Shown: positions 13,883 through 50,683 of the stretch, piece by piece
How positions within the stretch are numbered: position 1 is the first letter of the stretch
How the letters are laid out: the number at the start of each line of letters is the position of its first letter
DNA from: Antitrichia curtipendula
Lineage: Eukaryota; Streptophyta; Bryopsida; Hypnales; Leucodontaceae
Reading direction: 5' to 3'
DNA: 64,000 nucleotides
Assembly (NCBI GenBank): GCA_951230915.1
Contig: OX579637.1
Span: forward strand, 29,264,001-29,328,000
Translations under genes and position numbers: made by a program
The notes under the pieces: model-generated
What the model saw: the letters and a program-made list of their open reading frames with translations, nothing else
The model's database searches: none
Told to the model about the DNA's origin: nothing

Positions 13883-13908
13883 GTCCAAAAGTGGTTAAAT
13901 ATGGCATA
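13883..13908 (+). repeat. 26-bp direct copy of the 6741-6766 terminus
   Basis: GTCCAAAAGTGGTTAAATAT followed by GGCATA is identical at 6741-6766 and 13,883-13,908 and diverges on both sides. The right copy ends exactly where satellite B begins. Confidence 0.85.
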
Positions 13909-15999: not shown

Positions 16000-16026
16000 A
16001 AGGCCATATTCATTAAAATAAGACTA
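16000..16026 (+). repeat. Left terminal inverted repeat of the giant element
   Basis: AAGGCCATATTCATTAAAAT then AAGACTA, preceded by the duplicated ACAG at 15,996-15,999. Confidence 0.82.
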
Positions 16027-16517
16027 ACTGGTCAATATGAGAACCTAAGTCCCTCTTTTCAAAGATAAGTTGTTGGAGGCAAAGATAAATATGGATAGCC
16101 TTACCAACAGTTAATGAGGAAATTGCTATTTTAAAATGGTCATGAAGATAAATTTTTATTCCATTTTAGAATTGCTTAGAGCAATCACAAACTCAAACAA
16201 TGCAAAATGGAAATCCACATAGGTGGTAAGTATGTAACATTTACAACAACTGAAGTGGTCAATTTACGTTGAAGAACATGAATCTACTTGAGATGCCATC
16301 TACATATGAACCATTTAACTCGTTTATATATACCGTAATGCCTAGGAAATGAAATCATTCCCGTAATTCTAATGATTGAATGTAATAGTGTAAAATTATG
16401 AAGGCCATGTGCACATGAAGCCTTTGCCTTTTCTAAAATATGTATATGAATGAATATTCTATTAATAGTAAAGGATGCTATACAAAATTCATTGCATTCC
16501 AAAAGGAAACTAATCCA
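16027..16517. other. Subterminal non-coding DNA of the giant element
   Basis: AT-rich, no gene seen. It presumably holds the 3' region of the minus-strand gene that ends at 16,518. Confidence 0.5.
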
Positions 16518-17462
16518 CTAGCCATCATTTTTGGTGGAAGAACAATTTTTTGCTGCCTCATTGGCTGCCTCTACTGCTTTCAACTTGCTCAACCCTTTAA
16601 GGATATCCTCGCGTCGAGAAGGCCTTGGATCTTTACTCGCAGAAAGGACACGGCCAAACATGCCCATCAACATTAGTTCCTTCACTTCTCTTCGTCGCTT
16701 GCGTTCACTTCCGGCTCTGCTATCATTAGAAAGAGATCTGCAACTTTGACAAGGCGGCCTTGGAAATGGTCTATTGGTAGTACTTATGTACGGATCAGCA
16801 GTTGTTGTTGATTGTGTGTAATTTGACCCTTGAAAGTTTTGAAGAGTTGTTCGGTGGAATATAGGTACTCCAGAAGGCGAAGATCCACCTCCCACGGATT
16901 TCAAAGGAATGGAGCCAATAATCTCTGCAATGCGCGGGACTTGACTTGCATTGCATGCACCTAATGGGACCTTCCTCTTGCAACCTCCTCATGTTGAATC
17001 TGTATTGTAATCATTACCCTGTAGAGGGTGATATGCAACCGCTACAAGTGACTTTTGTCCATCCTCAAGGCGAGGATCCACCGCCTGGTGTTCTTCATCT
17101 ACATATAGTTTCCTGTGCGGGGTGTTTGAAGTCCGTAGCGTTGGCAATTGCGAGCGTAATCGACTAGAAATGAAGTCACTCTTATTCACAGGTGAGGGCA
17201 AGCAAATCGGGGTCCTCAATGATCCTCTACTCGGTGGGTTGTCGACCACGCCTTCCTCCACATTCCCCTTCAAGAAGTTGATGGCTGCGGAAGCCGCGTC
17301 GGTTGTAGAGCTGAGAAGAGAAGGCCTAGGATAAGAGAACGGCAAGAAGCTCCCTCCAGCCGACTCGGATTTCCTAGACATGGGTGCATCTGATCCAGAC
17401 AACAAGCTCCTAGTGGTGAGCGGTTGTCTCTGCTGCAACAGGTGCATTACGGACCCTCCGAC
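16518..17462 (-). pseudogene. Unrecognised cargo gene, last exon, one in-frame stop
   Basis: An exon starts at 17,462 after a TTCTTCAG acceptor and runs in one frame to a TAG at 16,518, about 314 codons. It is broken only by a TGA near 17,000 (NTDST*GGCKRK, probably from CGA). The protein is Ser/Pro/Arg-rich and looks low-complexity to disordered. Its C-terminal part has a CQSC pair, a basic ERKRRREVKEL stretch and a helical KGLSKLKAVEAANEAAKNC segment. I recognise no domain. It is the cargo gene nearest the left end and lies downstream of the FCP1-like gene on the same strand. It could be a further exon of that gene or of a polycistron-like series, because an intron could join them. Confidence 0.5.
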
Positions 17463-17772
17463 CTGAAGAAAATGGAGAGTACATAACCCTTACACAATTT
17501 ATCCTTGGTCCAAAGATAACAAACTACTTGCATAGTTAATATCTTCAATTCATTGATAAGACAAAGCCTCCACAACTATTCTCCAACCAAAAACAACAAG
17601 ATCTCAAAGACCAGAACTTATCCTTGACCCAAAGATAACTCAACATAGACAAAACATAGAATCAAAATGAAACTTCAAAATTTTACTAATACACATGAAT
17701 GAAATTTACATAATAATTTGTATTCACAATATGTACAACGCTTTCTACGATCGACGAGTATATGCAGAAGTA
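17463..17772. other. Intron or intergenic spacer with two 21-bp palindromes
   Basis: Contains copies of the 21-bp palindrome at 17,499-17,519 and 17,618-17,638 (TTATCCTTG-GTC/ACC-CAAAGATAA). No coding signal. Confidence 0.6.
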
Positions 17773-18617
17773 CTATTTCTTCCTATGTCTCTCCGGCTCA
17801 ATCACTAGTTTCATCCCCGGCAAGACGAAACGGGATCCAAAATTATTGGCGGACTCCTTCATGGTGCCTAACACTCCATACGCAAGATGGGACTTAGGAG
17901 ACAAGGGGGGCACGCCAATGCGGTTTGCATCAACGAACTCGCGCAAGCAACCAAGTGGACATTCTTCATGAAGTCGCCTCAACCACGGAACCAAACTGCC
18001 CAACAATACATTGTCCCCACGCCTCTCATGATCCCAACTCTAAAGGAATATCGCATTCCCATTCTCATTGAGGATGCTCTTTTGCGGAGAGTCGTCAATG
18101 AAAAGAGTGTTGTCCTTGTTAAAGGACATTGGATCATCCGGGTCTAAGAACAATTGCTCTTCAAGCACTTTGAGAAGCAGGTACTTCCAAGGGCTCCCAA
18201 TCTGTTTAACGTATTGCCCCTTGGACACTTCTATCGTCTTGCACTGTTCTTGGCCTAGGATATCGAAAGGTGCCTTGTTGTTTTGGAACAAGAAACCAGC
18301 GACAGGTTCCACAGTCTTCTTCAACATGGAGCTCCAGACTACAATGCGATTCGTGATCCTAGAAAGCTCGTCTAAGAATTCCCTCATGTTGGGACGAACG
18401 AAGACGGCCTTGGGCTCAATGATAGTGGGGATTCGGTCGGAAAATATATTCTCGTGCACTATGTGATACCGTTGTTTCAAAAATGGCCTTTGAAACAAGC
18501 ACTCACACAGTACTCCGTTCAAATCAAATACGACGTTCAACCACTTCTGCCGCGGTTGAGGAACTAGCATGGACACACTCCGTGGCACTCTCTCTCTCTC
18601 CGCTTCCTTGCTACTTC
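17773..18617 (-). pseudogene. FCP1/NIF-type (HAD) phosphatase-like protein, decayed
   Basis: An exon begins at 18,617 after a TTTGATCAG acceptor. The frame gives about 280 codons interrupted once by TAG at 18,040-18,042 (NAIFL*SWDHE), then continues to a stop at 17,773. HAD motif I is FDLNGVLC: the nucleophile Asp is kept, but the second Asp of DxDx(T/V) is Asn, as in DLNG-type plant relatives. Motif II is VVWSSM. A Lys in the IGSPWKYLLLK region may supply motif III. Motif IV is LFIDDSPQKS. FCP1-type enzymes dephosphorylate phospho-Ser/Thr, for example on the RNA polymerase II tail; whether this form was catalytic is doubtful given the Asn. It lies on the same strand as, and downstream of, the ParB-like gene. 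Confidence 0.75.
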
Positions 18618-19106
18618 CTGATCAAACAAAACAAAAAAGATATATAGTTACCTGTTGAAATGCGGAATCAGGTGACTCATAAAACGGCGAACAGTACTAA
18701 ACCCCACTAAGTGACTGCAGAACCCCTCCAGTAAGAGGTAGTTTGAGTGGCAACGATCGAATCACACTCATATTTTTTTTGCGCTGAGCACAACCATGGT
18801 CAAAATGAATCCATTAGACACGAAATTCACCGAAAGAAGAGTGCCTCGTATATTTATTTCTCAAGTAATTAAGATACATCCGGTCTACCGGTTTTGATGA
18901 GTTACTATCCAATTTGGTTACAGTATTCATCACACTTCGCTCGAGTATGTTCACTATTCTACAAGACGAAGTTACAGAGAGCAGTTTATCGACGCCAAAC
19001 AATCAGAGACTGCCCATTCCCTCCTGTCAATCAGAATGAATCAACATAAGAGATCCCTCATGAGAAACCCACAAGACGAACATCCATTACATTCCAATGG
19101 ACAGAC
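18618..19106. other. Spacer or intron upstream of the FCP1-like exon
   Basis: No supported gene. A minus-strand open stretch at 18,814-19,002 (62 codons) has no recognisable feature. Upstream exons of the FCP1-like gene could lie here but are not visible. Confidence 0.4.
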
Positions 19107-22100
19107 TCATGAATAATTGTAGGGATCTGAAGATGCTGGAGACTGTACCTGACCGAGATCCATGATGGCCGTTTCTTCGTCCATGTAACCCCCGTAGTCC
19201 AAGCTCTCTTCTTCGTCAGGCAGATTCTCAAATTCAACCACCATATTGTGGTTTGGAGAGGCAATGGCAAGCGGTACCGGATCCGCAAGAATCTCACCTT
19301 CCTCTTGCGTCTCCGGCACTGACTCCTCTTGGAGTTTGATATCAACGAGCCGACTTAAGTTATCCTCGCATCAAAGATAACTCGATTCAGCTTCACATCT
19401 TGTTGGTCCGGTTGTAGAGGACGGGATCTCGTCATGCCCCTGTTCCTCCTGTCAAACATCCGGCAGTGCCGGCTCAGCAGGCGTATGTCTAATATTGTCC
19501 TCATCCAAGGTAGGATGAGAGACAACATTATCTGCGACGCGAAGATCCTTAGGGGTATCGGCCGAGGTTGTTTGCCAAACATGGTCCCAAGGTGAAGCCG
19601 CATTATCTTCACCTTGAGGATAATGCTGGGTGTTGGCGGAAGTAGACTTCTGAACGGAGCCTTGTGGAGATCCGGAACTCATCTGTTGAATGGAGCAAGA
19701 GACTGACGGATCCTGCGTCATTGTCTTGAGAGAGTCATTCTCTTTCTTGAGTTTCTCTAGTTCCGCCTTCAGCATGTCCTTCTCCAACTGCTGCTTTGCC
19801 CATCTGGCTTCTTCTTCTACCTGCTTTAGGGCCTTCCTCTCCGCACGCTCCTTCCAGAAGTCCTTGTTCTCTTGTTTCACCGGAAGCAGAACTGCTTGAC
19901 CCTGAACTGGATGCACAACGGACTCCGCAGCAGGCTTAGGTCGCAGCTCCAAAGCTGATTCCACTTCGTTGTTGGCAGTCGATGGCCCCCCTGAGTCAAC
20001 CTCCGCATCGCCGTAGTCAATGTCATTCAGATCCGAGTAGGACTCCTCGAGTTCACTTAGATCATATATGGTTACTAACCCCTCAATGGGCATCTTGCCC
20101 TTCTTTCTGTTCTTCTTCTCTGTCGCTACCATCAGCGCCACCTGCTCCGTGCCCTCTGCCTCTTCCTCAACTCCTAGCGGGGTCGATTCGGGCAACCGAT
20201 TCATTACCTAGACACTGGTTATAATAACCTCCAGGTCGTCGCCGCCGACCATATCGGTGTTCGTCCCGAACTCATTTATCCCGAGTTCCAAGGCACCACC
20301 GTGACCACCTAAGTTGGCTTCCCTCTCTGCAATTTCGATGGGATCCACTAAGGATGGCATGGACTCGGAATCTAGTTCCGGAGTTGATAGGTTGCTTGGA
20401 CGTTCATAACCTGGGAGGTATGGCGAGTTCTCATGGCAGAAGTCGTTGATGTCCAAGGAACTGCCATACTTTGCCATGTTCCGATGTTTCTCGGATATAT
20501 GCCTCTTGGTAATCCCATAATAGAAGAGGCCATACATCTGCAAGACGAACACGACAAGTTAGTACCCAATTCACACCCTAAACTGCAGAGACAAACTCCA
20601 GCACAGTTATCCTCGTGTCGAAGATAAATGTTCAGCAGTCTATGAACAAGATTTGATATATGAAAACAACTACGACATCCGCATTGATATTGAAGTCCTA
20701 TTCCACAACCATTGCTAACTAATGATCATGGATGGTTATCCTCGGGCCGAAGATAACCATTGAACTCAGGGTGTTATCTTCGGCTCGAAGATAATGGGTG
20801 GCAGAAGCTACAATATTACCTTTGTGGCAATCATGAACTTCGACCCCGTGTAGATGCCGATGACGTTCTCTCCCTTCACACAAAAGCTCTGGAGAATGTC
20901 AATGTAGAACTCCATCCTCAGCTTGATGGCGTGGATCCTATACTTGGCCTCCATGTTCTTCTGGAATTCAGTGTAGTACGGAATTTTGCCTATGGAGTAG
21001 ACCCTCTTCACTGCATCCACATTTTTGGGCTCGTTGTCTGTCACTTTCCTCACACGAATACAAACTTCACCACGGAAGGCGTGGCTCATGTCGTGGTGTT
21101 GTCCAACCTCTCAGCTTTGTTGGGCTGGTACGTGAATACCTTGATTTTGTAGTCCTTGAGCTGCAAAGCTGCAAATTTCTTGATTGCCTCCAAGTCGTAT
21201 TGACTTCCCACGATCCATAACCACGCGTCCGGGATAGTAATTCCAGGCTTCAAATGAGCAGCCAAGTAACTGAGCAGTGGAGAACACAAAGGACCATCAG
21301 TGGATCTGGCAGTTGGTCGGGGCAGGATTCAGAAGTCTATGACAGCCAACTGAAGTTTTCTACTGGCATAAGGCCATTGGTGGCTCGTCACAAGAGCCTG
21401 CGGGTAGCACTGGTGGCCCCGGATGTACACATTGCCCCCCTTCTCTATGATTTCCTTCTTCAGCTTCAAGAATCTCTTGAAGATGGGATAGACCACGGAC
21501 AGTTTCGGGTGGTCTTTAAAGTCTACGGCCGTCTTCTTTTTTGCTTCGTTTGTTAGTCGCTTCACAAAAAAGAAATTGGGCGGCGCAATCAGAAGAAAAT
21601 CCCATGAGGCGGAAGTGAACTTGTTCGTGCGCTTCCATCTTCTCTATACCTCATCGATCACTTCTCCCTGTGAGTCCTTGAACTTCAAGGACTTGTCGAT
21701 GGCCATGAACTCCTCCATGACGATTTTCTTGCGCTTCCTATGCTCCACCCAGTGCTCAGCCTTATAGTTGTCCACGCACAAGATCCTTGCAGCAACCACG
21801 GAGACTTTCAGGTAATCACGGGTGCAACCATCAGTTCTTCCAAGCAAATGGTGGACATATTCCTTGAGGTCCTTGTCCGTGAAATGCCCCATGTGTTTGA
21901 AGAACTCTCTCTTCAGCGAGAAGTTCTTGGGGTTGAAGTTCTTTGTGGCCTTGTTGTATTCAGTGCACGTCACCGGATCCACCAGTTCTCCGTCAGTGTG
22001 TTTCTGGAGAAACTCCTCCCACAACTGGTATGTCTCGTCTGCCAACGTAATAATTCTAATTTCATTCTTCACATCCGACGCGAGTTTCACCTTGGCACCT

Positions 22101-23791
22101 TCTTTGTCAGGGTTAATGCTACAATATCTTATTAAGATAGCGTCAACAAATTTCTACATGGCAATATTTTCAATGAAACCACGGTCAGTTCCTAGGCAAT
22201 CAGAGATCTTGGGGGAGAGCAAATTATCCTTGACCCGAGGATAAACATAGTCATGACTCTTGGTGATGCTTCACAAATAAATTACGCGGTAGCAGCAATG
22301 CACAATTTCAAATCAGTACTAGCCACAATTTATCTTCGCCTCGAAGATAAACAGATAGACAATGCTTACCTTGTACACAGCTGGATTGAAGATGGCCTTG
22401 GTCAGTCTTTCCAGTCCTTCACATTCAACATTAGTTGGCCGCTTCAGTTCCTTCCACACCTGCCTGCAAGCTGAAATCTAATTCCCCCATGTCGGTTGAC
22501 TATGACCGAGGTGATTGGAGGAGTTGTACCACTTAGATATTTTGGTCAACTTCCTCGCGTCAAGCATATAGACAATTGTTGCATTCCACGTCTGCAACTC
22601 CACCTTTCGGGACTCGCAACATCCGCCACTTTGCAGCATCTTGGAGGCAATGATGCTATGTTGGCCATTAATAATATAGAAATTTCCGTCCTTAATATCA
22701 TCCCACTTAGAAGGACGTTCCTTGAGGAGCCTTTTGTTGGCGTCAACCAAAGTCAAGCATACTAGTTGCCTTTGTTGGACGGACCCAAGATGGATAAGAG
22801 TCTCCTTCAATTCTTCAACAATCTTCATCTCCAATTTCCGGATGATGTACCTTGGAGGGGCCAGATGGCATTTGGAGATGTTCACCTTGAACGTCATGGG
22901 ATCAAAAATGAAGCAGGACGCGTGCTTCTTCCAGAAATCTTTCTGGTATGCGCCTACCACTTCAAATTTCTGGATGGGCTCATATTCGCCCGTCTTCCCG
23001 TGATGAACGTTTGTTAGTGCGGAGCTTGAACTTCCAACAGTTCTTGCCCGATTGTCTGTCACGGGTTTTAGGCGCTTCTTGGTGGTCTCAACAGTCCCTC
23101 TTTTCGGGTTCTTCCGCTTGGGGAGCTGAGCTTGCGTTGTTCCCCTTCCACTCCCTCTGCTCCCAGTTCGGGCACGCGTCCCGGATACCGGCTTTGTTTC
23201 AGCGTCTGCTTTGTGTCTGACTTGGCCACGACCCTGGCTGTTACGGGATTGCTTGTCTACATGTTCTTTTGCATAGTCCTTTAATCTGCTAAACATGTGC
23301 CCAATCCTTCTCGCCATGAAGATGGCGTTTTTCCGTGTCCATGGATGGAATCTTTTTTGGAATTCATCCGTCAGTTCGTCATGGTTCCCTTCGTGTAAAC
23401 CTCTTATGAGGTTATCCAGGTCGAACGCTCCCACATCGTCTTCTTCATGCAGGACAATGGAGTGGGTGTGTTTTGTATCCTTTCCGGAATGGTCGCATGC
23501 ATGGAGTGTTAGGACAATGAATTTCTCCTGGTGGAGCTCTACGAGGTCGACCTTCTCGTCCAGGTTCCAGTTCACGTAGATTCCTGAATCCTTCACCCTG
23601 TGGCATAGAAGGACGTAGTCCTTTGACCGATTTATTTCGAATGTCCAAGATTCCACAATCGGCTTGAATTGCCAGAGGTCACCGTAGAGCTCCAGCCAGT
23701 CGAATATGAATGGCTCCTCTGACGTCCATTTTGTGAATGGCTCGAGGAACGAGGCGGTCGCTGAGTAGTCGTATTTCTTAACCTCTGCCAT
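19107..23791 (-). pseudogene. ParB-like / methyltransferase-like cargo gene of the giant element
   Basis: The start ATG is at 23,791, just after a TTGCAG acceptor, implying a leader intron. Exons are 23,791-22,370, 22,207-20,820 and 20,537-19,107, all joined in frame. Exon 1: an uncharacterised N-terminal region, a basic low-complexity linker (residues ~200-270), then a ParB/Srx-like FYIINGQHSIIASKML motif. Exon 2 resembles a methyltransferase: IIEKGGNVYIRG, LQLAVIDF, WLWIVGSQYDLE, then CVKGENVIGIYTGS like an FxG motif. Exon 3 adds an acidic, coiled-coil-prone tail (KQVEEEARWAKQQLEKDMLK). Lesions: TAG 22,478, TAG 22,154, TAG 21,644, TGA 21,329, frameshift near 21,088, TAG near 20,205, TGA 19,452, TGA near 19,375. 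The domain order parallels the gene at 2613-5885, but the sequences are clearly different. Confidence 0.6.
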
Positions 23792-24337
23792 ATTCAAGAA
23801 TATCTGCAAGTATTGGTAGATCACGTTAGCATATATTCTTAGGATTATCTTCGGTCTGAGGATATTTCTAGCATCTACCTTCGCATCTGTTTGCCCCGCA
23901 GTTTGTTTTCCATTAGAAACCCAGAACCTACATTGTCCAGGTTTATCTTCGTGTCGAGGATAATCTTTTTCGTGGTTGGTTGTTCATGCATTATGATTAG
24001 TTACCTTAGCTTCTATGTGTCTTTGTTCTTCTACTATTCTTGTAGTTGTTTCAGTGATTTTTGTTTTTTTGGTCGTGTTTTGCGTTGTTGTTTATCTTCG
24101 GTCCAAGGATAATTATCTTCTGTCCGAGGGTAAATATCCACAGCACGATTATATCTGCGATTTTCCTAGTTTATGACGCTCTCATTTGGCTGCTACGGGG
24201 TTGTACTGTTTTGTGTATTTATCTTCGGGTCGAGGATAAACGAAATCGTCTGATATGTTTATTGGAATGTTTTAAAGCTATTTCAGTATGTGTTGTGTGT
24301 GTTGTTATAATTTGTTTTGTGAATAGGGAGAGGTTAA
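23792..24337. other. Leader/intron region with 21-bp palindromes
   Basis: Palindrome copies at 23,845-23,865, 23,943-23,963, 24,092-24,112, 24,113-24,133 (directly abutting) and 24,219-24,239. No credible protein; open frames crossing this area are made by the palindromes. Confidence 0.6.
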
Positions 24338-24523
24338 TTATCCTCGAGCCGAAGATAATTATCCTTGGCTCGAGGATAACCACGCTAGGGCCGGGGACAA
24401 TTATCTTCGGCTCGAGGATAATCACGCTCGACCGGATGATTATCCTTGTACCGATGATAATTGTCCCCGGCCCTTGCGTGGTTATCCTTGAGCCAAGGAT
24501 AATTATCTTTGGCTTGAGGATCA
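24338..24523. repeat. 186-bp near-perfect palindrome built from 21-bp palindromes
   Basis: Six palindromes (24,338, 24,359, 24,401, 24,440, 24,482, 24,503) are arranged symmetrically about ~24,430. The linkers are also mirror images: ACCACGCTAGGGCCGGGGAC (from 24,379) pairs with GTCCCCGGCCCTTGCGTGGT (ending 24,482), with one mismatch. The block could extrude as a cruciform or fold as one long hairpin RNA. Both strands therefore read similar peptides (repeats of IIILGSRI/IIVPGP type), which are not evidence for a gene. Confidence 0.88.
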
Positions 24524-25139
24524 TTTCAGCAGATGTTATTGTGAATATTTTGTTCAAAATCCTAGGTTATACCCTTTTTAGCTAATCATGCATTGCTCTA
24601 GATGTTGCGCATATTCATGTTTAGTGAAAATGTATTGCAACAACTAAGAAAATGAGGAACGTGAAAGGAATGCCTAAACGAGTTTGGATCAAAAAATTTC
24701 TTACCTTCCAGTCCTTCGTCTAGGCAAAATGAAATAGCAGCTCAAGTAGTCTTCAGTACCAAATCTGCACACTACAGGTACTTACAAAGTTAGAAATGAA
24801 GTCACATTGCACCTAAACTTGGACAATTACTACATGAATTCAAGAAACAAGTAACAAAAACTAATGAAAGCAAAACCACAAATTGCAATTACTCAACACA
24901 GTGATGAAACTGGAAATCGTGAAAAGGAAAAACTTTTGAATTTGAAGTAACCTGAATACCGTAGCAATAAACTGAATGAATCCTAGCGGAATTTTGAATG
25001 AAAACTAGTAGGAAATCCCGACACCCTAAGCAAATACTTTCCCCACGATTCTTGTAGAGAAGCGCAAACAAACATAACAAAATCAACACATGAGCATTTC
25101 TACAATTCCAAAACCAATATGACATGAACAATTGCGGTT
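24524..25139. other. Spacer upstream of the ParB-like gene, possible leader exons
   Basis: AT-rich. A minus-strand GTAAGAAATT donor near 24,703 and several GTAAGT/ACTTAC sites suggest untranslated leader exons of the minus-strand gene. A minus-strand open stretch (24,889-25,131) has no recognisable content. Confidence 0.35.
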
Positions 25140-25400
25140 GGCGAACTCACAGCCTAGGAGAAGAAATTGCGCACACACCACGAGATCGCACACACCAATC
25201 ACCTTGAGATCACAAACCACCACCAGTCACACACACACCACAAGATCACAAACCACCACCAGTCACACACACACCACAAGATCACAAACCACCACCAGTC
25301 ACACACACACCACGAGATCACGCACCACCACCAGTCGCAGTACACACCACGAGATCACGGACTACCATCAGTCGCAGCTAACACATGGAGAAGAAATTGC
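25140..25400. repeat. 36-bp minisatellite, about 5 copies
   Basis: GATCACAAACCACCACCAGT plus CACACACACACCACAA recurs with GATCAC at 25,208, 25,244, 25,280, 25,316 and 25,352. GGAGAAGAAATTGC flanks it on both sides (25,157 and 25,387), followed each time by CACACACCA within 30 bp. Since 36 is a multiple of 3, plus-strand frames stay open (HTHH/TTTSH repeats) without being genes. Confidence 0.88.
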
Positions 25401-25684
25401 AGAGGGAAAAGGCACGTCGTGCACACACCAATTGCGAGGAAATCGTAGAATGGGATCGCCGTGGGGGGTCGCAACACGCCGACCAACTGTACACAGACCC
25501 GAAAACCCCAAAACCTAGCAATTATTAAACCCACAAACAACCCCAACACAAGACCAACATAACACAATACAACAATAAGACCGACGTGCTGCAAACTAGA
25601 AAGGAAGAACGAAAGAACGGCAAGCCCAAAATGAAGAACGCCGCGGCTGTCTGCGCCGCCAAACGAGAGTGACGACCTCCCGCA

Positions 25685-25860
25685 CCTGATTCCAACCCTC
25701 TACTCGACCCTCTGCCCAAGCTTGTTTCCGAGCCTCTGCCCGAGCTTGTTCCCGAGCCTCTGCCCAAGCTTGTTCTCGAGCTTGTGTCCGAGCCTGTGTC
25801 CAAGCCTGTACTCGAGCTTGTGTCCGAGCTTGTGCCAGAACCTGTGCCCAAACCTCCCAC
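25685..25860. repeat. 12-bp minisatellite (CGAGCYTSTGYC type)
   Basis: About 14 copies of a 12-base unit such as CGAGCTTGTTCC or CGAGCCTCTGCC. It is open in several frames on both strands (AR(T/E)QA repeats on minus, PSLCPSL on plus). This is repeat-driven coding potential, not a supported gene. Confidence 0.85.
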
Positions 25861-28800
25861 CCAACCTTGTGTTGACTTCCCGGACTAGTTCCGAACCTAT
25901 AGTCCAAAAACCCAAACCTGCAATCCCAACCTCCTCCATACAAATGTTCGGGAATCTTTTTTAGTTTTATTGACTAATTTCCTCCAATTTCCACACTGAA
26001 CCAGTTTTTCAAGTAACAAGTCAAGTTATTTTCTCTTCTTTCCATTCAAAATAAAAAATTAATAGACATTATCACCAATTTTTTGCCAATGTTTTCAAAT
26101 TGCAATCGGGTTTTTTTTAATTCCACCAGCTAACTTTGAACTAGCCGCCGATTCTTCCCGGACAATCTCCACAGTACGCTATGTGTTACTCATTCATGAA
26201 GTGTATTATTTTTAATTTTGGTGTTTGTAATTTTTTAACCATTGAACGACGGGTCGGTCATTTGAAAAACAAATTGTTTTGTCACCTTGCTAATTGTTAA
26301 ATTAAAATAATCTTGGAGCAAAAGCTATGCCACAAAAATTCATTTGAATGACTTAATGGCATTACAGAAATTTAGTATTATTGCATGGATGGAGTCTTTT
26401 CTAGTATGCAATGCTCATGTGATTTTGTAATAGATAAAAGAATTGTTTGTCTTAGATTCTAGATGCATGACAAGTGATTAAATTTCCATAATAATAACAA
26501 TGAAATAGTCAAGTAAATGCAATAATAGATTCATAAAAGGCATTCCATGCATTTCAACATTGTCATTTGATATGAAAATGTGCACTTCATCTAATTTTTA
26601 AATTCATTGCTTTCGGCATTTCAATTATTATCACGTTAGCATGTGAAGTACTACATTGTTTGGAATGCAAAGTGTAATAACATTTTTATGGATGTAAGGA
26701 GATCAAATTCTACAAGAATAAAATTGCATCAAAATCATAAATATTTACAAAAAATTTGGCATGAATAGTGACTTTTAATGAAAATCTATGTTTAATGCTT
26801 GGATTTAATAATATTATTTATTAATAATCAAAATAATAAATTGAAGAGCTTTATGCAACCTCAGGTATGATCTACCGTCGTCCCAAGTCAATGGCTTCCC
26901 CATGATTTTACACTTTTAATATGATGTCTTAATGTATCTTATATAAAATTATTTTGTGAATATATTTAGAATTTAATATGAAAGTGATGAGAGATAATTA
27001 TGAATCTACATAAATAAACTACAAAACATTCAAATATACATATCTTGCCAAAAAATTCAAAACCATATACACCAAGAGATGTAACTTTTTGCAGATGGCA
27101 TAATCAAATTCATGCTAAATTAACAAAACACCATTTTGATTCATAAAAAATGTTTGTTCAATTTTTCTACTATCATTTTTATTTAATTATGGTATAAAAA
27201 TACACATTGAATTTGGAGCTCCCTTGCTTTCTACATATTGAAGATTGAAAATTTTGTGACCCTTTCTAGCTTTGAAGACCTTGGCGGTGGAAATTCGATC
27301 CTCATACAATGACACAAATGTGGTAATCTGAAAAATGGTTGGCAAAATAGATCACCTTCTTGCAAAAATAAGCAATGGAACAATGAACTCAGACAACGCA
27401 CAAACTAAAAATATTTTCTTCACAACTATAAATAAAAGCATTTAAAAAGGAAATTATTGCAAAAGCCATAATAAGATTTTTTCAATTTCTATTCCAAGTC
27501 ATCATCTTAGTAAATTTACTTTTAAAAACTCACTAAGTTTTTGTATTTGTTCAAATACATTCAAATAAATTTGGATTGATGTTTGTTCAAAAGGTATTTA
27601 TTCATTCTATTTTAATTAACTCCATAACTCCTCAAATCCCAAGTGTCTAATTAGGTAACAATTGAAGGTTCCGTGCAATTCTTATTAATATCTCAATTTC
27701 GGGAGTAAGTATTTTTAAACTTTATTTTGTAAATACAGTTTTTAATAAAATTGATTCTCCAATAGCAATAATTATGCTGCACAAAGCTCAAAGTAGTCAA
27801 CCACAAGCAATAAAAAAATCACAATAACTTGAAATAATTTTTCTAAAGTTTATTTCTTGTAGATTACATTTTTGTCCATTAATATAATTATGTAATATAA
27901 AGATTGATTCATTTCATTTGGATTAGTGTTGTAAAAGCTATGGAGCATCTTATTTTAAAGGCATTTATAGCATTTTCTTGGAAAAATAATTTGCTAGATC
28001 CATTTCTAGACTCAATTATACCAATTTAAGAAAGAAAATTTTGCACAAGGATTACTTTCTTTGTTAAAAAATTATTACCATTGGGATTAGTATACTTCAA
28101 GTCTATCTTAAAACTACTATTCATTTAGTTTTTCCTTGAATCTGGTACATGATTCCATTGATTATTTTTTGAAGAATGAATATATTGTTTTCAATTTACT
28201 TTTCTTAACCTCTAAAGGCCCATTGTTCCTTCAAGGGACAAAGTAGATTTTGGAACGGTTCCTATGGCCTCCATTTTTGGTAAAACTTTTCAAAACTTTT
28301 TGATCAAATGGAAAAATTTATTAGCTTTGTGGAAATAAAATTTTTATTTTAACCCCTAAAGCCCCGTTTGTCCCCTCGGGGGACAATTTGGGTCCAGGTA
28401 GGTTCCTGTGACCTCAATTTGTAGAGAAATTTTTTGGGATTTTTTAAAGTTGTGCGGTTCTGCGAGAGCTTTGTGGATATATAACATTAATTTCAATTGG
28501 TGCTCAAGAGAAAAAGTTATTCCAAAAAAAGAGTGTGGCGGGCAGTACAAAAAAATCACAGAAAGTCAACATAAATTTCTTAAATATTTTTTTCAAAATC
28601 TATGTCTTTTTTTATACATTTGAAGCTTTGATTCATTCTATTTGGACTAATAATGAAAAATTTATGGACAATCTTAATTTTTCGGGCAATCTAAGCATCT
28701 TCTTGAAAAAATAACTTTTAGGATTCATTTTTGAATGCAATTTTTACAATTTTCAGAAAAAAATTGTTGGACAAGGTTGAATTTGCTTGCTAGAACAATC

Positions 28801-31667
28801 TCACCGTTGGGATTATGGTATTTCAATTTTGTCTTAGAGCTATTAACAATTTAATTATTCCTTCAATCTTGAACCTACTTTTATTTAACTATTTTTTAAT
28901 GAGTAAAAATTTAGTATTTTTTTCTTGAATTTTTTTTCCTAGGTTTGCAATTGAAGTATTCAACATATAAACTTAGGAAATCAAAATCAACAATACAAAA
29001 AAATTTAAGTTAAATAGCTTCAAAGCCCAAAAATAAAGTCAAGCAAGGTGCAAAAATACTTGTTTTCTTCACTTTGAATGCAAATATCTTGCAATCTATT
29101 TGGTCAAAGTTTTTGAAATTTCTTACACACATTCTCATATTAGTCTAGTATAAGATCCTACGGTTATATATGCAAAAAAACCCTAATTTTATAATTTTTT
29201 GCTCTTTGCAATAGAAGTGGCAGTTTTGAGTGTGTTTTGATGGAGAAAAGGCCTCGGGGCTTTAGGGGTTAATTGGTGCTCAGGAGTAAAAGTCTTACCA
29301 CAGAAAGCCTAGAACTGAACTTAATGGGCAATCGAGAAAAAATTGCAGAAAGTCATAATAATTATGACTTATGTTATATGAATTAGTCATTATATTTTTT
29401 CTAAAATATTATATTCTTTCTTCATATGAAGCTTTGATGTAATCAAATAGGATTAGTGATGAAAAGGTTAAGGACAATCTTGTTTAATCCCTAAAGTCTC
29501 AAGGCCATTTTTTGTCATAAACACTCAAAATTGCCATTTGTGTTGCATTCACTTAAGACAGCAAAAAGACATTTTTTTAGAATCTAAGCATAGGATCTTA
29601 TACTTGAGTTGTCCAAGGTTATATGAGAAAAATTTCAACAAATTTTCCCATTTGGATTGGAAGATGTTAACATTCAAAGTTGGACAAACGGATTTTTATC
29701 AAGAACATAATCTGTTAAGGAGTTTTACATTAATGTATTAACAGTTTTTACATCATCAAAAAAATAATTCAAAAAAATATAATGTGTTAGGAATTTTTTT
29801 TTTAATTATTTTGATTTTTTGTGATTTTGGGGGGGCTTTTTGCCAACCGTCCTCCATTTTTTAATTTTTGTGCAATAACTTTTGCTTCCGGGCACTAATT
29901 GAAATAAAAATCATATTGCCAAAAAACTTGTGTGTTTCTCTAGCTTTACAAAAAAATTTAGTAAATTATGATGAATATTGAAACCGTATGAGCCTAGTAC
30001 TTGAAGTCACATTTTGGCCTCAGTAGGTCCAATGGGATTTCAGGGGTTAAAGGGCAATCTAGGCATCTTCTTCAAAAATTAAGTTAGAGGATTCATTTTG
30101 AATAAAAAAATTTATAATTTTTCAAAAAAATTGTTTAATAAGGTTAAAATTGCTTGTTAAAACAATCTTACCATTGGAATTATTGTGTTTCAATCCCATC
30201 TTTGAGGTATTAATAATTTAGTTTTTCTTTCAATCTTAGACTTCCTCTTATCTAACAATTTTTTAAAGAATGAAATTCAAATGCGTGTTTTTGGAAGAAA
30301 TATTCCAAGACTATCAAATCAATTATTTACCACAATCTTTTTTTAATTCAAAGTTTAGATTCCAAAAAGAAATTCCACAAATAATAGTCAAAGTCATCTA
30401 GAGTTGTAGGTCAGTGTTCAAGAAAACCTTTTTTTCCCAACTTTGAATCCTGATAATTTTCAATTTGTATAGTCAAACTTTATGCAATTTTCACCATACG
30501 ATTTCAAACAAGTGAAGTACAAGATCTTACAATTAGATTTTTTTAAATGTAATTTTTTTTGGATGAAGGCAATAGAAATGACAATTTTGAGTGATTTCGA
30601 CCCAAAAAATGGCCTTGGTCCTTCAGAGGTTAATTTATCAATTCATGTCTCTAGTAAAATAATCTAATTTAAAATCCATATTCATATAAGTTGAAGAGTA
30701 TTCAAAGTCTTATAATTTACTGTAGCAAGATGGAAAAAAAATCTTTTTCACTTTAAATGCAATTATCTTCCAATGTACTTGATATAGGGAGGATAATCCT
30801 TTTAGTTGATATATGGTGATATGTATCAGTATACTACCAAATGTATGGTATACAATTTGTGAAAAAACAAATATACAAGATTAGGCAACGGAATTTTGAG
30901 TCCATTTGACTAAAGCTAGGAAATAAAGACAATCATGGCTTGACTATAAAATTCTGAAGCCAAATGACTAAAGCCATTAAAAGAAACCACAAAATAAATA
31001 AGGAATCAATAGATTCATGATGTCACACAATTGAGGCCAGGAAATGAGGGCACATAAAGTGCCACCACAACTATTGCTTCAAATAATTTGAGTGTCCCTT
31101 CATCCACAATTATAATGTTTTCATAAAAACAAATAATTAAAAATAACTCAACCTTTAAGAGATGAAGATCTATTTCAAGGCACAAATTAATTTATAACTT
31201 ATTATATGTGTACAAATAATTTTTGTGACCATTCATCTAGAATTGTAATTTGTTCATTATTTTATATTTTAATTAAAACAAGCTTTGGTTTTCTTAATTT
31301 ATTACATATGATAATGAGACTGTGAATGCTCAATATCCAATTTTTTCACTATAAACTTTGAATTACTTTAAAAATTATATTGAAGGATTGAATTGAAAGC
31401 TAAAAAATAGATCCAGTATGATGTTTTTCCAAAAAAATGCTATAACTATCCCTAAAGAAAGATGCTCTATACCTTATCCATACTAATCAAAATGAAATGA
31501 ATCAATCTATCCATATATAGTCCAAAATATAATCTATAACAAATTAATTTTTTAATTTTTAATTTCAAATCCTTATGATTATTTTTGTTGCCCAAGCTTC
31601 ACTATTTTGAGGTTTTGGTGGCATAGCTTTTGCTCCTAAATCCTAAACCCTACAAACCCTGAAAAAC
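25861..31667. repeat. AT-rich gene-free interior with diverged copies of dispersed repeat C
   Basis: No gene seen across nearly 6 kb. From about 28,200 to 30,800 there are several diverged units sharing an AACCCCTAAAGCCCC-like block (28,220; 28,350; 29,250; 29,490; 30,040; 30,620), an AAGATCCTACGGTTA-like block (29,150; 30,520; inverted at 29,600) and CACTCAAAATTGCCA. Related sequence occurs outside the element at 52.3-53.3 kb and 63.7-64.0 kb. 25,961-28,200 shows nothing recognisable. Confidence 0.6.
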
Positions 31668-31688
31668 CCCTAAACCCTAAACCCTAAA
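31668..31688 (+). repeat. Interstitial telomere-type repeat (CCCTAAA)3
   Basis: CCCCTAAACCCTAAACCCTA within a longer degenerate tract (31,636-31,720). A shorter copy, ACCCTAAACCCTAAATCC, lies at 36,838-36,855 on the other side of the DUF7869-like gene. Confidence 0.85.
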
Positions 31689-31829
31689 TCCTGAATCTTG
31701 AAACTCTGAATCCTGAATACTAAAGCAATTTTAAAATACTTTAGTGAAATCGGTTTCCAAAATAAGGGATATCCTGAATGTGAGATTCCATTACAAGAAA
31801 TTCTTGCTTTCCGTGACAAATGACATGTG

Positions 31830-33603
31830 GCTATATGTCTGTAAATACCTTATTCCCTAACAAGAGACGACTACCAATAACTCCGCTGGTAAAATTTTGC
31901 CTATTTATAAGAATAGAGGTCGGTGGAACGTTGGATTCCATTTCACCCCTAAACCACCAGTTGCGGGATAGGATTGTCAACGCCCCCAAAGTAGGGAGAT
32001 ACTCCTCCCCTGCTTCCTGAAATTTTGGAACGTTCAAATTTCCCGCTTAGTCATCCCGCCACTTTCTTCATCGTCTCTCTCTCGTGAGCTCCCCATATCG
32101 CCTCATTTTCTTGTTCTCCAGTCTTTTGTTCCTCCTTGGCCTCCTGCATGCATTGTTATGGCGCGGCCTCTGAACGTGTGCATTTTCAAATCATTCTGTG
32201 TTTGCGAAGTTAGTAGTGTCTTGGCGGCTTAGTATCGCTTGAGTTCTCGGAAGTTCCAGGTTCTCTTTACATTACTTCTTGTCAAAGTTTTTGTGTTTGG
32301 TGTCATTCGTTGAGAGCTGTTTGATTATAAACCGAATTGTTGATCAAGGTACAGTTTTTTGTTCTCCATTTGTCAACTGCAAGTGATAGTCTTGAGTGGT
32401 AAGCATTCGGACGGCACAGATTCCAAGGTCTGTGTCGAATTTCACGTGGTTTGAGTTCCCCTATTTCTATGCCAAAGAATCCGGAGAGAACGTAAGAACC
32501 AGCCACGAATGATCATATTTATGCTCGGCTCGAGGATAATCATGAACAACAATCCCTATTGTATTTATCTTCGGGCCGAAAATAAGTGTCATTAGTTTAT
32601 GATGGTGCACATTATGACCCATAGAATAATGTAAAACTTGAAGAGGCCAAAATATTCAATTATCTTCGACACAAAGATAAACAATTTAGAAACTAGTAAT
32701 TACTCGATACACTTGCTCCCAATAGGGACACCCGGCTTCTTCGTCTTCCCTCTCGGAGAGATCCTAGTAATTATTGTACTTTACTTTTTATCTTCAAGCC
32801 GAAGATAAATTGGTGTATATCAGTCCTATCAAATTGATTTCTGTCTGGTTATCTATTTTTGGTATGAAATTTATGCTGAATGCAATCTTAGAATCTTATC
32901 TTGGAGTCGATGATAGAACTAGTATTCCTGGTAGTATTCATTTATATGTATGTTTACAAATTTGTAAAATACATCAGATAGATTTGACTTATATCTTTGT
33001 GTACAATTCATTATTAAATGATCTGTAAATATTTATCCTCGTATCGAGGATAATACTTTTTTTAAGTATTAGTTGGTGTGTTTGGTTTAATTTATGGTAA
33101 GGGAAAATGAAAATAATATTACTTGTCATTTATTGACATTTTAGTTATCTTCAATTCGAAGATAAACTGATCCTTTTTTTGCACTTTGAGTATTTGTAAG
33201 GTGGTTGGATATCATCTTTGGCGTATCATTTCAGACATAGACATTTGAATAGAATCGTATCTCTTGTTCTCTTGATGATTATCTTTGATTAGATGGAAAA
33301 TTTGTAGGCTTCAATTTTTTAGTAATTTGTCTGTGAGATGGTTGATTTGAATGTTTTTTATATTATTATTTATATATATATATCATATATGATTAAAGGA
33401 TTTCAGGGTTTTGGGATAGTCAAGTAACTCACCTTGCATTCCTCTCGCCCTTGTGAGAGACTTCATATCCTTGTACGATGATTTGTATAAAATCATATCT
33501 TTGGCTCGAAGATAATTTGGCAATGAATTTTGTGTTTGATGTATCTTGGACTCATGGATGTGATCTTCCATTATAAACTAATGTCAGTTACATTTCTTGC
33601 AGG
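31830..33603 (+). promoter_or_regulatory. Promoter, leader and leader intron of the DUF7869-like gene
   Basis: A TATTTATAAG at 31,912-31,921 is a possible TATA box. CT-rich sequence (TCGTCTCTCTCTCGTG near 32,070) fits a plant 5' leader. The coding start follows a clear acceptor (TTTCTTGCAG at 33,593-33,602). Nine 21-bp palindromes lie between 32,518 and 33,515, mostly where the leader intron would be. Confidence 0.4.
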
Positions 33604-36447
33604 ATGGATACTCATGATGTCAATGAGTTTACAATTCCGGTGCCAGTTTTGCCCGAGGGTGTTGCACCTTGCGAGGGAATACCACGTGCTTCTTGGTATA
33701 CAAAGTGTGTCATCCTCAGAAATGAAAGGTCGGTGGAAGTGGCTAAAGGGATTTGTCACAACATAGATGCGGATCTTGTCATCGACATGAACGGGGAGTC
33801 ACTTGGTGACGATCGCGTCGCTATTCATATTGCAGAGTCTTTATGCAAAGAAGAAGTTCTTTCGAAGTGGATGTGGTCAATGCACTTTTGGCCCATTTCG
33901 AGACTCTGTTTGAATGGTGCTAGTTTGTATGATCATGAGCAAGCGCATCTCTACAGATCCGCTCTGAATGGGACTGGGCAGCGAAAACGAATTGGAGTTC
34001 GTTCCTATGAAAGCTCGTGAGAGAGGAAGGAACCAAACAGCCTCCCAAGAAAAGATGTCCTTCTCATCCCGCAGTCAGTGGTTGAGGTGTCTAGTAAAGA
34101 GTGTTGCACCAAGAATTGTGTACAACCATTTCCACGTGGTCAGATTGAAGCCATTCGGTCCGTAATGTATGTTGATGGAGGAGTATACACTCGGAAGTCT
34201 TGTTTGCTTGATGTACACGGGCAAATCCACCATGATCAAAATGGGAGGGATATGATCACCTTGTCAAAACATGAAGTTTGTCCCACGGCTTGGTGCCATA
34301 TTCATGGAGTATCAAGGGCTACTTTTTACAGATACAAAGGGAAAGCCAAGAAGGAGGACAAACCAGAGCATCATGGTAATCTGGGGATGAAGAAGCCTCG
34401 GACCTACACTCTACAAGCGACGGCCACTCTTCGATTATTGGTAGACAACGAAGCTGATGCAATGCCGCACAAAACAAAGACCCTTGACTCTAGGGAGAAA
34501 GTTTCCTCCATGGTTTTACCATCTGGATTTCATTGGAAGGACAAGTTACCGGAGATTAACAATGTCAATTCGTCATTTCAATTGCAACATATTTCAGCTA
34601 GTGGATTGAGCAACATTCGACGTCAATCTTTTCCAGAGTTTGCTCCAAAGGCTAGGGGTGATAGTTTTGCACGTTGCAGATATTGCGATAGGTTAAAGGA
34701 GCTGAAGAGTGCTTGCACTCTTGGTTCACGAGCACAACAAGTGTGGGCCTACAAATTGAAGGTGCACCTTGATGGACAGAAGGCGCATAGGGATTTGTAT
34801 TAAGGAAATCGTGGAATGTCAGAGATGTTTCCTGACAAAGTTTTGACCATTATCCATGATAAGATGGATCACTCAAAAACCGCTTCTCCCCATTTCTCTC
34901 ACAAGAGCAAAGGAAACGATTCATTCATGAAGATGCCCGTGGCAGTTACGGGCATGATTGCTCATGGGCATGGAGATGTGCGATATGCGCACTATGGCTT
35001 AGACATCTTCTCCATAGACTCCAACCATACCATAGGATCAATTGCAAAATTGTTAAGAGATTTGGAAGCGCAACCAAAGCATTCATCTCGTAAACTTTTT
35101 GCAGGAGGTAATCGTTCTCAAATTGACAAAGGCTTTGTTATTAGGCTCACAAACTTGTACGGACTCTCTTGGATCACCCCCAGATGAGTTGGTGGAAGCT
35201 AAACCCCTTCCTCCAACATTGACTCTTCAACTTAACAATGCTTCTGGTGACAACAAGAACCGCTGGGTTTTTGCATTTTGCTCTCCACTAGTCTATAGAG
35301 CTATTTTTCGAGAGATTTACATCAATTTCCTCATTGTCGGACACACTCATGAGGACATTGATGCTCTCTTTGGTCAATGGAGTAGCAAATTGAAGACGGA
35401 CGATTACCCTACACTTCCAAGGTTAATGAAGTCTTTCATGGATTGCAAAACACAAGCTGTGATTCCTCATCTCATTGAAGAGGTTCCTGATTTCAAGTGT
35501 TTTGTAGAGGGGTGTTTGCATATAGGTGATGATTCTCTATTGGGCCATTCTCAAGCCTAGCAATTCAAATTTTACAAGGATTCTAGTGGATGGCCTTTGA
35601 TGCAGTACAAGATCTTGTGTAATGATGTGGATTGGCTGCCAAAAGAAGGTGGAGGCATTCGCTTGTGGAAGGAGACAACAAATGGAGGTCCTAAAGTGCC
35701 AAGGGGTACACCTCCACCTTTGGCTCCACAAAAAATGCATTGTTTTGATGAGGTTTGCAAGGGTTTAGAAGGATATATTGCATTATGGGGTGCAATGGCT
35801 AATCAAGACTTGTCTGGAGAGTTTCGAAGGAAGAATGAGCTAATGCGGAAATACTGGGAAGGTGTCAGAAGCGCTTTGAACGCACCCCTCGTGATGCGTG
35901 AAAATTGCGGGATGGATTTTGGCCAAATTCTCAAATCACTGAGGAAGTAGAAGACCAATACCTTGACGATGGTCAAATGCGTGAGGAATTTGCAGAAAAT
36001 GCACCATTTGTTGGTTGTAGGCGTGACCGTCCAGTACCTTCACTTTGTGTTGGCCGTGATGTGTACGCAGGTTATTTTGTTGCAGTGCGACCTGCTGATG
36101 GTGACCTCCGCCCATTTTGGCTTGCTTGTGCACTTACAAATCCTAATCCAGATCCAGGGCATGTCAATTCAATTGAGCTGCAATATTGGACGGCTACATC
36201 TTTTCAACACGTTATGGAGGATACGTACGGAGGTTGGGACACAAAACAAGGGAATTCTTGGTGCAAGGATAAGGCAATTTCTTCGAGCTAAACGCAAACG
36301 GACTGTATCATGACTGCTTGGAAGCCACGTGTGAGAGCAGGGACTTTTGATCCAAGAATCAAAATTCCCAAAAATCAAATTGCTATAATCAAGGCATCTG
36401 TGGAGGCTTATGTGTGTGGGGAAGACAACAATGCATCTTCTGAGTGA
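33604..36447 (+). pseudogene. DUF7869-like protein, candidate DDE transposase of the giant element, decayed
   Basis: ATGGATACTCATGATG at 33,604 opens a frame that continues past TGA 34,018-34,020 and TAA 34,801-34,803. It then shifts near 35,170, passes TAG 35,558-35,560, shifts again near 35,940, and ends with WKPRVRAGTFDPR...SSE at 36,447. Features in order: a Cys-rich N-terminal domain (KECCTKNC, EVCPTAWCHIHGVSRATFYRYK), a CRYCDRLKELKSAC zinc-binding-type pair, then a possible RNase-H-like core: TIIHDKMDHSK, LQLNNASGDNKNR, VGHTHEDIDALFG. I read these as the D, D and E/D positions of a DDE-type fold. In this copy the middle motif is LNN where LDN is expected, a likely inactivating change. 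Family assignment is from memory of the HTHEDID motif. As the only transposase-like gene within the TIRs it is the best candidate for mobilising the element. Confidence 0.6.
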
Positions 36448-37105
36448 AGGTGGATAGATTATAGGCTTAGGAAAAGTGATTAGAAGTTTGTAGTGTATTT
36501 TCCTATATTTTAAGACTGAGAAAAAATGTAACTTAAGTACTTGTAGTAGTGGAGGTGTTTTTCTTAAATATGTTTACATAAAAAAAGAAAAAGTAAGGGG
36601 TTGGAAAAAAGAAATAGATTTAGTCCGCAAATTATTTTAGTCCATTATGTTGATTTATTTTTCTTGGTATTTTAGAATTTAATGTTGTAGGCGGTGTGCA
36701 ATATAATATATATTTAATTTGTTTTATGTTTTATGCATTGTGTATTTTCCAGTTTGTAAATTATATTTTTTCTGTCCATCACCATGGATTTGTAAGACTA
36801 GATGCATTACCACATTGTAAGATGAATTCTTCTATAAACCCTAAACCCTAAATCCTAAGTATATGCTACAAGCACTTGCATTGATCTTAAGTTCAATATT
36901 TATTCTGAACAAATGGTTAGACTTCAAATTAGTTTTAAAATCATCTTTCAAATATCTTTACTCCAAAATTGGTAAGCAATTTCATATACATGCTTAAATT
37001 AATAAGTCTATTGGCATATTCATATCTCAGTTTATTGAATAGTCTCAATTTAATGGATTCTTTTGCATACTAAATTTAGGATCATGAACAAAATGAGAAT
37101 CCAAA
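36448..37105. other. Right subterminal DNA of the giant element
   Basis: AT-rich with no gene. It has a telomere-type stub at 36,838. Near the end, GGCATATTCATATC (37,014) and AATAGTCTCAATTTAATGGA (37,039) mirror or repeat the terminal repeat, giving a subterminal repeat and a possible end hairpin. Confidence 0.6.
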
Positions 37106-37132
37106 TAGTCTCGTTTTAATGAATATGGCCTT
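37106..37132 (-). repeat. Right terminal inverted repeat of the giant element
   Basis: TAGTCTCGTTTTAATGAATA then TGGCCTT on the plus strand, the reverse complement of the left end with two mismatches. The duplicated ACAG follows at 37,133-37,136. Confidence 0.82.
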
Positions 37133-50419: not shown

Positions 50420-50659
50420 TGCGTTCACAACCAATGGAAATGTGATCTTCGAGGACGTAGAAGAGGCTATCACACCAAATGAAAAGAACAAAATAATAGT
50501 TAGCGCCAATCCACTGCTTGAACTGATTTTTACATCACCTCAATAGCAAACCAGGGCCATTTGCCACCCAAGTAGATTCACAAGGAGCTCAAACTGAATT
50601 TTAGTCCAAGATATGAGGCCAAGATGACAAATGTAGGGAAGTCACAACAGTGCGGTTGC

Positions 50660-50666: not shown

Positions 50667-50683
50667 CCCTGGGAGTGCAGGGG

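Follow-up and report, generated by a model that had tools for sequence, protein, structure and literature searches.

Within the window, by which we mean the whole 64-kb stretch of Antitrichia curtipendula DNA that was analysed, positions 16000-37132 form one TIR element of 21,133 bp. We estimate a probability of about 0.5 that this is a dead, multi-gene cut-and-paste transposon of which one protein binds palindromes in the element's own introns and so opposes silencing. The features of the element are listed in Table 1.

The terminal inverted repeats are 27 bp each and differ at 2 positions, and the next best place for an element end, in the whole window and on either strand, has 9 mismatches in 27. 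The ends read AAGGCCATATTCATTAAAA; the 5' end at 16000, AAGGCCATATTCATTAAAATAAGACTA, matches the end at 37132 once the latter is reverse-complemented. ACAG is present on both sides as a 4-bp duplication. Satellite anchors at 15862 and 37194 lie 21332 bp apart, which is the sum of the element (21133), the duplication (4) and one satellite period (195), and the satellite unit runs on unbroken when the flanks are joined without the element. Both the insertion and its limits are thereby demonstrated, and the inverted ends, the ACAG duplication and the exact register of the satellite, on which the first-pass annotation had based its call, all hold. Tandem Repeats Finder reports arrays at 13908-15999 and 37425-40606; by the sequence and the anchor at 37194, the right array begins directly after the element. 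The inverted ends and the duplication, around a site whose empty state the satellite confirms, fit a TIR (class II) DNA transposon. A candidate second copy at 40607-60250 (20 kb, also flanked by the 195-bp satellite) was dropped, as no matching ends were found.

Table 1. Features of the element and its borders, in window coordinates
Feature	Position	Strand	Basis
Target site duplication ACAG, left copy	15996..15999		read beside element
5' terminal inverted repeat	16000..16026	+	2 mismatches against other end
Downstream open frames of left transcription unit	16518..17460	-	Pfam: none at E<=0.1
Left palindrome cluster, 21/29	17499..24523		pattern scan, at most 3 mismatches
FCP1/NIF-like exon	17780..18620	-	Pfam PF03031; 38% identity to L012
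Coiled-coil, acidic exon(s)	19138..20537	-	position matches L012 coiled-coil exon
Intron, 3 palindromes	20538..20819	-	homologous L012 intron: 3 sites of other type
Methylase-like exon(s), broken	20820..22153	-	28-45% identity to L011/L012 exons
Intron separating ParB-like from methylase-like exons, with 2 palindromes	22154..22369	-	homologous L012 intron: 2 other-type sites
ParB-like exon (GQHS motif), one in-frame stop	22370..23803	-	9 relatives, 39-59% identity; 26% to L012
Predicted first intron of left gene, 11 palindromes	23804..24704	-	palindrome positions
AT-rich middle, about 28% GC, no palindromes	25900..31700		composition, palindrome scan
Predicted 5'UTR intron of putative transposase gene, 8 palindromes	32492..33602	+	GT...AG and site positions
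Right palindrome cluster, 8/29, all in transposase intron	32519..33515		pattern scan
DUF7869 gene, very probably transposase, broken	33604..36441	+	tblastn 70-82% identity to P0001; Pfam PF25273
3' terminal inverted repeat	37106..37132	-	match to 5' end
Target site duplication ACAG, right copy	37133..37136		read beside element

The element contains 29 copies of a 21-bp palindrome, TTATCYTCG-NNN-CGARGATAA (type A), counted as TTATCYTCGNNNCGARGATAA with at most 3 mismatches; at this threshold there are 0 copies in the other 42.9 kb of the window. Half-sites, when CpG decay is allowed for, are likewise concentrated (51/55 inside the element, 4 outside). By our gene models 26 of the 29 palindromes are intronic, a bias for which the binomial test treats the sites as independent, some being tandem, and for which the fifth intron is approximate (17461-17770) and 23793 was taken as the end of the left gene's first intron. 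The first-pass annotation is silent on palindromes.

The right-hand gene had been proposed as the transposase, and the alignment of relatives supports this. Pfam DUF7869 matches the frame 35057-35560(+) with E=2e-32; no other Pfam family exceeds its cut-off in the transposase frames or in the 4 relatives scanned. All of the aligned relatives (58/58) keep three aspartates, the order of which is predicted to be RNase H-like. This makes a DDD transposase very probable; the third of the conserved acidic positions is Asp (D587) in every one of the 58. Some relatives represent large clusters, e.g. of 647, 253 and 201 member sequences. The window gene covers residues 1-947 of P0001 (948 aa) in three pieces. 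It is damaged by two frame breaks and four in-frame stops, and has asparagine in place of the second conserved aspartate. In a Foldseek search with the transposase the top row was Argonaute at E=0.007, and no row reached 0.001.

The names of the left-hand genes differ in standing. FCP1-like is upheld by the Pfam family NIF (E=5e-13 in frame 18040-18621(-)); PF03031 scores 49.5 and 61.3 bits in the window, the latter for a stretch translated with X at one stop, and 53.8 in contig L012, with a cut-off of 21.8. No PDB match by sequence was found for this exon, and NIF is the only Pfam family above cut-off in the left-hand exons. ParB-like and methyltransferase-like are, as far as sequence tells, motif-level names: these window exons gave no Pfam match above cut-off, the best weak one being DUF6551 (E=0.089), which spans the GQHS stretch. 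For the ParB-like exon a PHROG 'ParB-like' match reached E=0.019 in 1 of 10 members, outside the GQHS region, and its structure model is of low confidence (mean pLDDT 48). The best methylase match among the two relatives scanned was N6_N4_Mtase, seen in one of them at E=0.033; its 14.6 bits fall short of the cut-off, 26.7. With prokaryotic proteins that combine ParB-N and a DNA methylase the moss unit would share a GQHS-type motif and, further on, a VYAGSK motif that is methylase-like by its position. The moss unit differs from these in showing no significant family match and in that [DNS]PP[YFW] does not occur in the L011 and L012 exons of the methylase-like kind, so that both marks of an N6/N4 DNA methylase, the family match above cut-off and the catalytic motif, were missing. 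The donor GTAAG of the ParB-like exon, judged by eye, fits relatives that read on.

The view that the genes beside the transposase are cargo was half right. ParB-like, methylase-like and FCP1-like exons stand in the same order and on one strand in the distant contig L012, at 26-45% identity. The coiled-coil exon joins this order weakly, with a pairwise match to L012 at E=0.002 and no tblastn match at 1e-3. With this shared order and strand, and the same kind of intronic palindrome in L012, the left-hand genes appear to belong to the element as a conserved component and not to be random cargo. The AT-rich middle is perhaps nested or captured, since its pieces of >100 bp share 67-73% identity with sequence from outside the element.

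Palindromes of the same plan were found in relatives, with the frame TT....TCG-NNN-CGA....AA fixed and the four variable bases reading ATCC, TAGC or CAGC. L010 carries the type-A word of the window, L002 carries TTTAGCTCG-NNN-CGAGCTAAA (type B), and L011 and L012 carry TTCAGCTCG-NNN-CGAGCTGAA (the remaining type, C), also in introns homologous to those of the window; the placement of sites in introns of L010-L012 follows our own reading of splice signals. Types B and C are one base per arm apart, and at 4 mismatches each pattern also catches sites of the other, so only type A against B/C is a clear difference. The word appears to change slowly, as L010 keeps type A though it is 38-39% identical to P0121. 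Of the 6 best sites in L002, half fall past the coding region and outside known introns. For types B and C the words put to the shuffle tests had been taken from the same sequences, and the strict-frame count is an independent test for L010-L012, not for L002. The dyad search at 2 mismatches also returned many unrelated dyads, and the control contigs L001 and L003-L005 were retrieved with the palindrome pattern itself. These comparisons suggest that the palindromes are sites coevolving with an element-encoded protein, by which each lineage marks its own DNA.

Other readings of the palindromes have to be weighed. They may be binding sites of the transposase, with an HTH-like stretch of the DUF7869 protein building a transposition complex inside the element; accessory binding sites inside the element help this complex in some other DNA transposons. 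The stretch around GVSRATFYRYK, which matches Pfam HTH_7 weakly (E=0.06), the type-B word around the transposase gene in L002 and three decayed half-sites at 16060-16151, near the element's 5' end, are consistent with this. We nevertheless find it unlikely, as the outer 1.5 kb (left) and 3.6 kb (right) of the element have no full palindromes, these being grouped in introns as far as 8.5 kb from the closer end, and as the inverted ends do not contain the word. If the sites instead served a host transcription factor, or as intron enhancers used for expression of the element, their position would be well explained, most of them lying in the first introns of the two units (8 and 11 of 29), and GATAA does stand at each end of the type-A word. 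Yet different words occupy two introns at homologous places in the window and its relatives, contigs of types A, B and C fall in one bin (which may mix hosts), and the host DNA of the window holds none at 3 mismatches and, at 6, 18 of the 72 sites; we regard this explanation as unlikely.

A partition-like left unit, in which a ParB-like protein spreads from parS-like palindromes and holds, clusters or segregates an extrachromosomal element, would agree with the INGQHS motif, invariant among aligned relatives of the exon, and with the dispersal of the palindromes. It is quite improbable, given that comparisons with ParB families, with PDB sequences and by fold gave nothing significant for the ParB-like exon, that no partner gene was recognised in the element, and that the sites are many and intronic, unlike plasmid parS sites, which are few and clustered. 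Of comparably low probability is a chance enclosure, by a DUF7869 transposon, of a separate element or of host genes: one pair of ends surrounds two halves that both have type-A palindromes in their introns, and the left exon order recurs in L012. For such a capture speak the resemblance of the AT-rich middle to outside DNA and the distribution of the two gene sets, which share one DNA stretch in this window only and sit on different contigs in G001. Very improbable, finally, is an action of the repeats as RNA, through short intronic hairpins steering splicing or small-RNA production. The sites do lie in predicted introns, and of the 12 strict sites in L010-L012, 11 have self-complementary bases at the four variable positions, but among 26 window sites (at most 2 mismatches) the variable pair is C/A in 6 and T/G in 7, so that a transcript of one strand would mispair in 13.

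We prefer self-recognition against silencing, in which the element would be the dead copy of a cut-and-paste DNA transposon, most likely of mosses. Two transcription units would diverge from its middle, the transposase to the right and the ParB-like/methylase-like/coiled-coil/FCP1-like unit to the left, both bearing many copies of one 21-bp palindrome in their introns. An element-encoded protein, most likely the ParB-like/methylase-like product, would attach as a dimer to these palindromes throughout the element and, by opposing host silencing, would keep both units expressed, like VANC for VANDAL21. Protein and palindromes would diverge together, so that each lineage would act on itself only. 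At less than even odds, and thus tentatively, a family of land-plant DNA transposons may have a recognition of its own, with the ParB-like/methylase-like/FCP1-like unit reading the palindrome, a four-base 'lineage code' diverging along with it, and protection or control limited to self. If true, this would be a second sequence-specific anti-silencing system, unrelated to VANDAL and with a longer palindromic site that has changed in homologous introns among relatives with gene order preserved, suggesting repeated evolution of self-recognition in large plant transposons. It would also provide natural protein-site pairs for the study of drift in DNA-binding specificity, and would offer the accessory genes of DUF7869 elements a function open to testing.

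By its anatomy the element is probably of the Sola kind. Sola elements have a DDD transposase and a 4-bp duplication, some exceed 15 kb, and they are found in Physcomitrella (PMC10741241); in Sola2 of social amoebae the transposase has 888 aa, the ends measure 12-21 bp, the 4-bp duplications are AT-rich, and Fanzor genes can be present (PMC3627910). As far as the cited excerpts describe them, the moss element resembles Sola in its probable DDD transposase, its 4-bp duplication (ACAG, at one site), its short inverted ends and its size above 15 kb, and differs in its 21 kb, the conserved left-hand unit and the intronic palindromes; from Sola2 it differs in that ACAG is not AT-rich. The first-pass annotation knew of no described plant DNA transposon with this gene set. 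None was found among the matches listed, but the kind of element may be known, as Sola.

In fungi, DNA transposons that encode TET/JBP dioxygenases have this gene in addition, and it likely acts against silencing by methylation (PMC12730594). The moss element would share with them an extra gene, which may oppose silencing, on a DNA transposon; the enzymes and hosts are others, and the excerpts of that report do not mention a palindrome. Sequence-specific anti-silencing has been described for Arabidopsis VANDAL elements (PMC5735166). In VANDAL21/VANC an element-specific short motif is repeated in introns and other non-coding parts and is rare in other elements, and the motif differs between related VANDAL families (PMC5735166, PMC10398659). 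The moss element is like VANDAL/VANC but not a member, because its only Pfam family above cut-off is DUF7869 and not a Mutator-like (MULE) transposase. Judged from the same excerpts, the VANDAL21/VANC motif is 9-base and asymmetric, whereas that of the moss element is a 21-bp palindrome, mostly dispersed and partly tandem; common to both is an element-specific non-coding motif, here with 26/29 copies intronic and 0/29 outside the element in the window.

The element at 16000-37132 is confirmed as a 21.1-kb inverted-repeat transposon inserted in satellite DNA, with boundaries known to the base. The first-pass annotation had claimed inverted ends, a 4-bp duplication and a satellite resuming in register, and these were borne out: the two 27-bp ends differ from each other at 2 positions, ACAG is present on both flanks, and joining the flanks restores the satellite unit. 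Satellite anchors on the left and right lie 21332 bp apart, exactly the element plus 4 bp plus one 195-bp period; the satellite serves as the empty site. Elsewhere in the window, the best match to the 5' end has 9 mismatches. A second long non-satellite stretch (40607-60250) lies within the 195-bp satellite, which restarts near 60251 and, judged by eye, lacks about six bases at that point; inverted ends were looked for in this stretch and none were seen. A 178-bp satellite array and a 28-bp minisatellite, the unit of which includes the palindrome ATCGTGGGATCCCACGAT, were observed at 1-2620 and 6198-6620.

A dispersed dyad was first seen in a repeat search. This 21-bp palindrome (type A, TTATCYTCGNNNCGARGATAA) has 29 sites in the window at up to 3 mismatches, 9 of them perfect; all 29 are inside the element and none in the 42.9 kb outside it, and across 100 first-order shuffles of the element the count averaged 0.02 and never exceeded 1. 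At a looser cut of 6 mismatches, 54 of 72 sites are inside. Five introns, 2.8 kb together, hold 26 of the 29: the transposase 5' intron has eight, the ParB/methylase introns have 11, 2 and 3, and an intron near 17.5 kb, whose start is approximate, has two. The remaining three (19360, 19528 and 19603) are within or adjoining an open frame. The palindromes link the two halves of the element. In the 26 sites that depart from the word by no more than 2 bases, changes cluster at CpG, where C8 has become T in 7 sites and G14 has become A in 6, as expected for methylated, decaying DNA. Three decayed half-sites resembling CAAAGATAA were observed at 16060-16151, about 150 bp or less from the 5' end, with no full site there.

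The source assembly of the window comprises 303 contigs (400 Mb). Transposase relatives numbered 140; of the 120 listed, the majority have no organism on record, and two mosses, Ceratodon purpureus and Physcomitrium patens, are the only ones given for the rest. A moss is therefore the likely host. Sequence continues into the next intron in four of nine ParB relatives (by eye). In that intron stretch, three of these ParB-like proteins (P0121, P0123 and P0129) contain the type-A palindrome without a mismatch, each in a frame of its own, and P0125 has a near match; an exact search of 129 proteins matched only these three (500 shuffles: mean 0.086, maximum 2).

The public contig L002 encodes a transposase with 46% identity to the relative P0001 and lacks type-A sites when 4 mismatches are allowed. 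Its word is type B, TTTAGCTCGNNNCGAGCTAAA, which occurs 6 times with 4 mismatches allowed and 12 times with 6 (against averages of 0.005 and 0.85 in shuffled sequence), always outside the coding region. The frame TT-4-TCG-NNN-CGA-4-AA was derived from types A and B before three further contigs, L010, L011 and L012, were fetched, and these agree with it. Strict counts are 3, 4 and 5, respectively, and 0 in the part of the window beyond the element (42.9 kb). L010, with a ParB 38% identical to P0121, carries type A; L011 and L012 (24-25%) carry type C, TTCAGCTCGNNNCGAGCTGAA, with a single base in each arm setting it apart from type B. Two homologous introns hold 2 + 3 sites in the window and in L012, 1 + 1 in L011, and 1 in L010 (first intron). 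Across the sequences compared, the position and plan of the palindrome are conserved and its arm letters vary between lineages.

Like L010, L011 and L012, L002 is filed under a genome bin (G001) labelled Synechococcales cyanobacterium, which also has three ParB-like loci with open frames. All four contigs are intron-bearing, with bryophyte-like transposon sequence, and the intron-bearing genes of the bin are presumably bryophyte contamination.

Left-hand unit in the window and in contig L012
Feature	Sequence	Position	Strand	Relatives
ParB-like exon	window	22370-23803	-	9 relatives, 39-59% identity
Methylase-like exons	window	20820-22153	-	L012 match 28% + 45%, two pieces
Coiled-coil stretch	window	19138-20537	-	weak L012 match, E=0.002
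FCP1/NIF-like exon	window	17780-18620	-	L012 match 38%
ParB-like open frame	L012	5829-7307	same as other three	26% identity to window
Methylase-like open frame	L012	4291-5793	same as other three	
Coiled-coil open frame	L012	3000-4223	same as other three	
NIF-like open frame	L012	1365-2219	same as other three	

The left-hand genes had been taken for cargo, a view that was only half borne out. All four open frames occur in L012 in the window's order and on a single strand; this order and strand, with the shared identities, argue that the unit is conserved and not casual cargo. The coiled-coil part gave no match between window and L012 in the comparison that matched the other three. L011 has ParB-like, methylase-like and coiled-coil parts, assigned by position.

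Among the proposed gene names, FCP1-like stood and the NIF assignment of this exon is solid, whereas ParB-like and methyltransferase-like reach only the level of motifs or weak matches; both names are weaker than the conservation of the unit itself. The INGQHS motif of the ParB-like exon is invariant across aligned relatives, with a weak DUF6551 match over it (E=0.089), and the exon gave no significant family, PDB-sequence or fold match. A methylase-like match (E=0.033) was found in one of two relatives scanned, and the usual catalytic motif of methylases was absent in both. The FCP1-like exon reads FDLNG (18514-18528, minus strand), as does its L012 relative, at the position where phosphatases have DxDx(T/V), so the domain may lack phosphatase activity.

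The middle of the element (25900-31700) is AT-rich, with about 28% GC. Pieces of more than 100 bp share 67-73% identity with the window near 53.1, 59.5-59.8 and 63.8-64.0 kb, suggesting that this middle may be a nested or captured host repeat.

We hypothesize that a dimeric protein would read the palindrome, protein and word changing together between lineages. A plan kept while letters changed points to such a co-changing dimeric, hence element-encoded, protein. The most likely reader would be the ParB-like/methylase-like product, and its binding might act in anti-silencing of the element. Other readings were rated lower: the palindromes could be accessory sites of the transposase, host enhancers or RNA hairpins, or could serve with the left-hand unit in partition.

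A literature search gave no report of this combination among the matches listed. As a transposon, the element may belong to the Sola superfamily, whose published description it fits: this superfamily is described as having a DDD transposase, 4-bp duplications and ends of 11-1124 bp, with members mostly of 2-9 kb, some above 15 kb, and occurring in Physcomitrella (PMC10741241); for Sola2, an 888-aa transposase and 4-bp duplications are given (PMC3627910). For the palindromes, the nearest described behaviour is that of the Arabidopsis anti-silencing protein VANC21 and its transposon VANDAL21, whose role the proposed reader would resemble. The motif bound by VANC21 is 9 bases long and lies in non-coding regions of VANDAL21, introns among them, where methylation is lost, and it is described as rare in other elements (PMC5735166); VANC targets are reported to diverge rapidly (PMC10398659).
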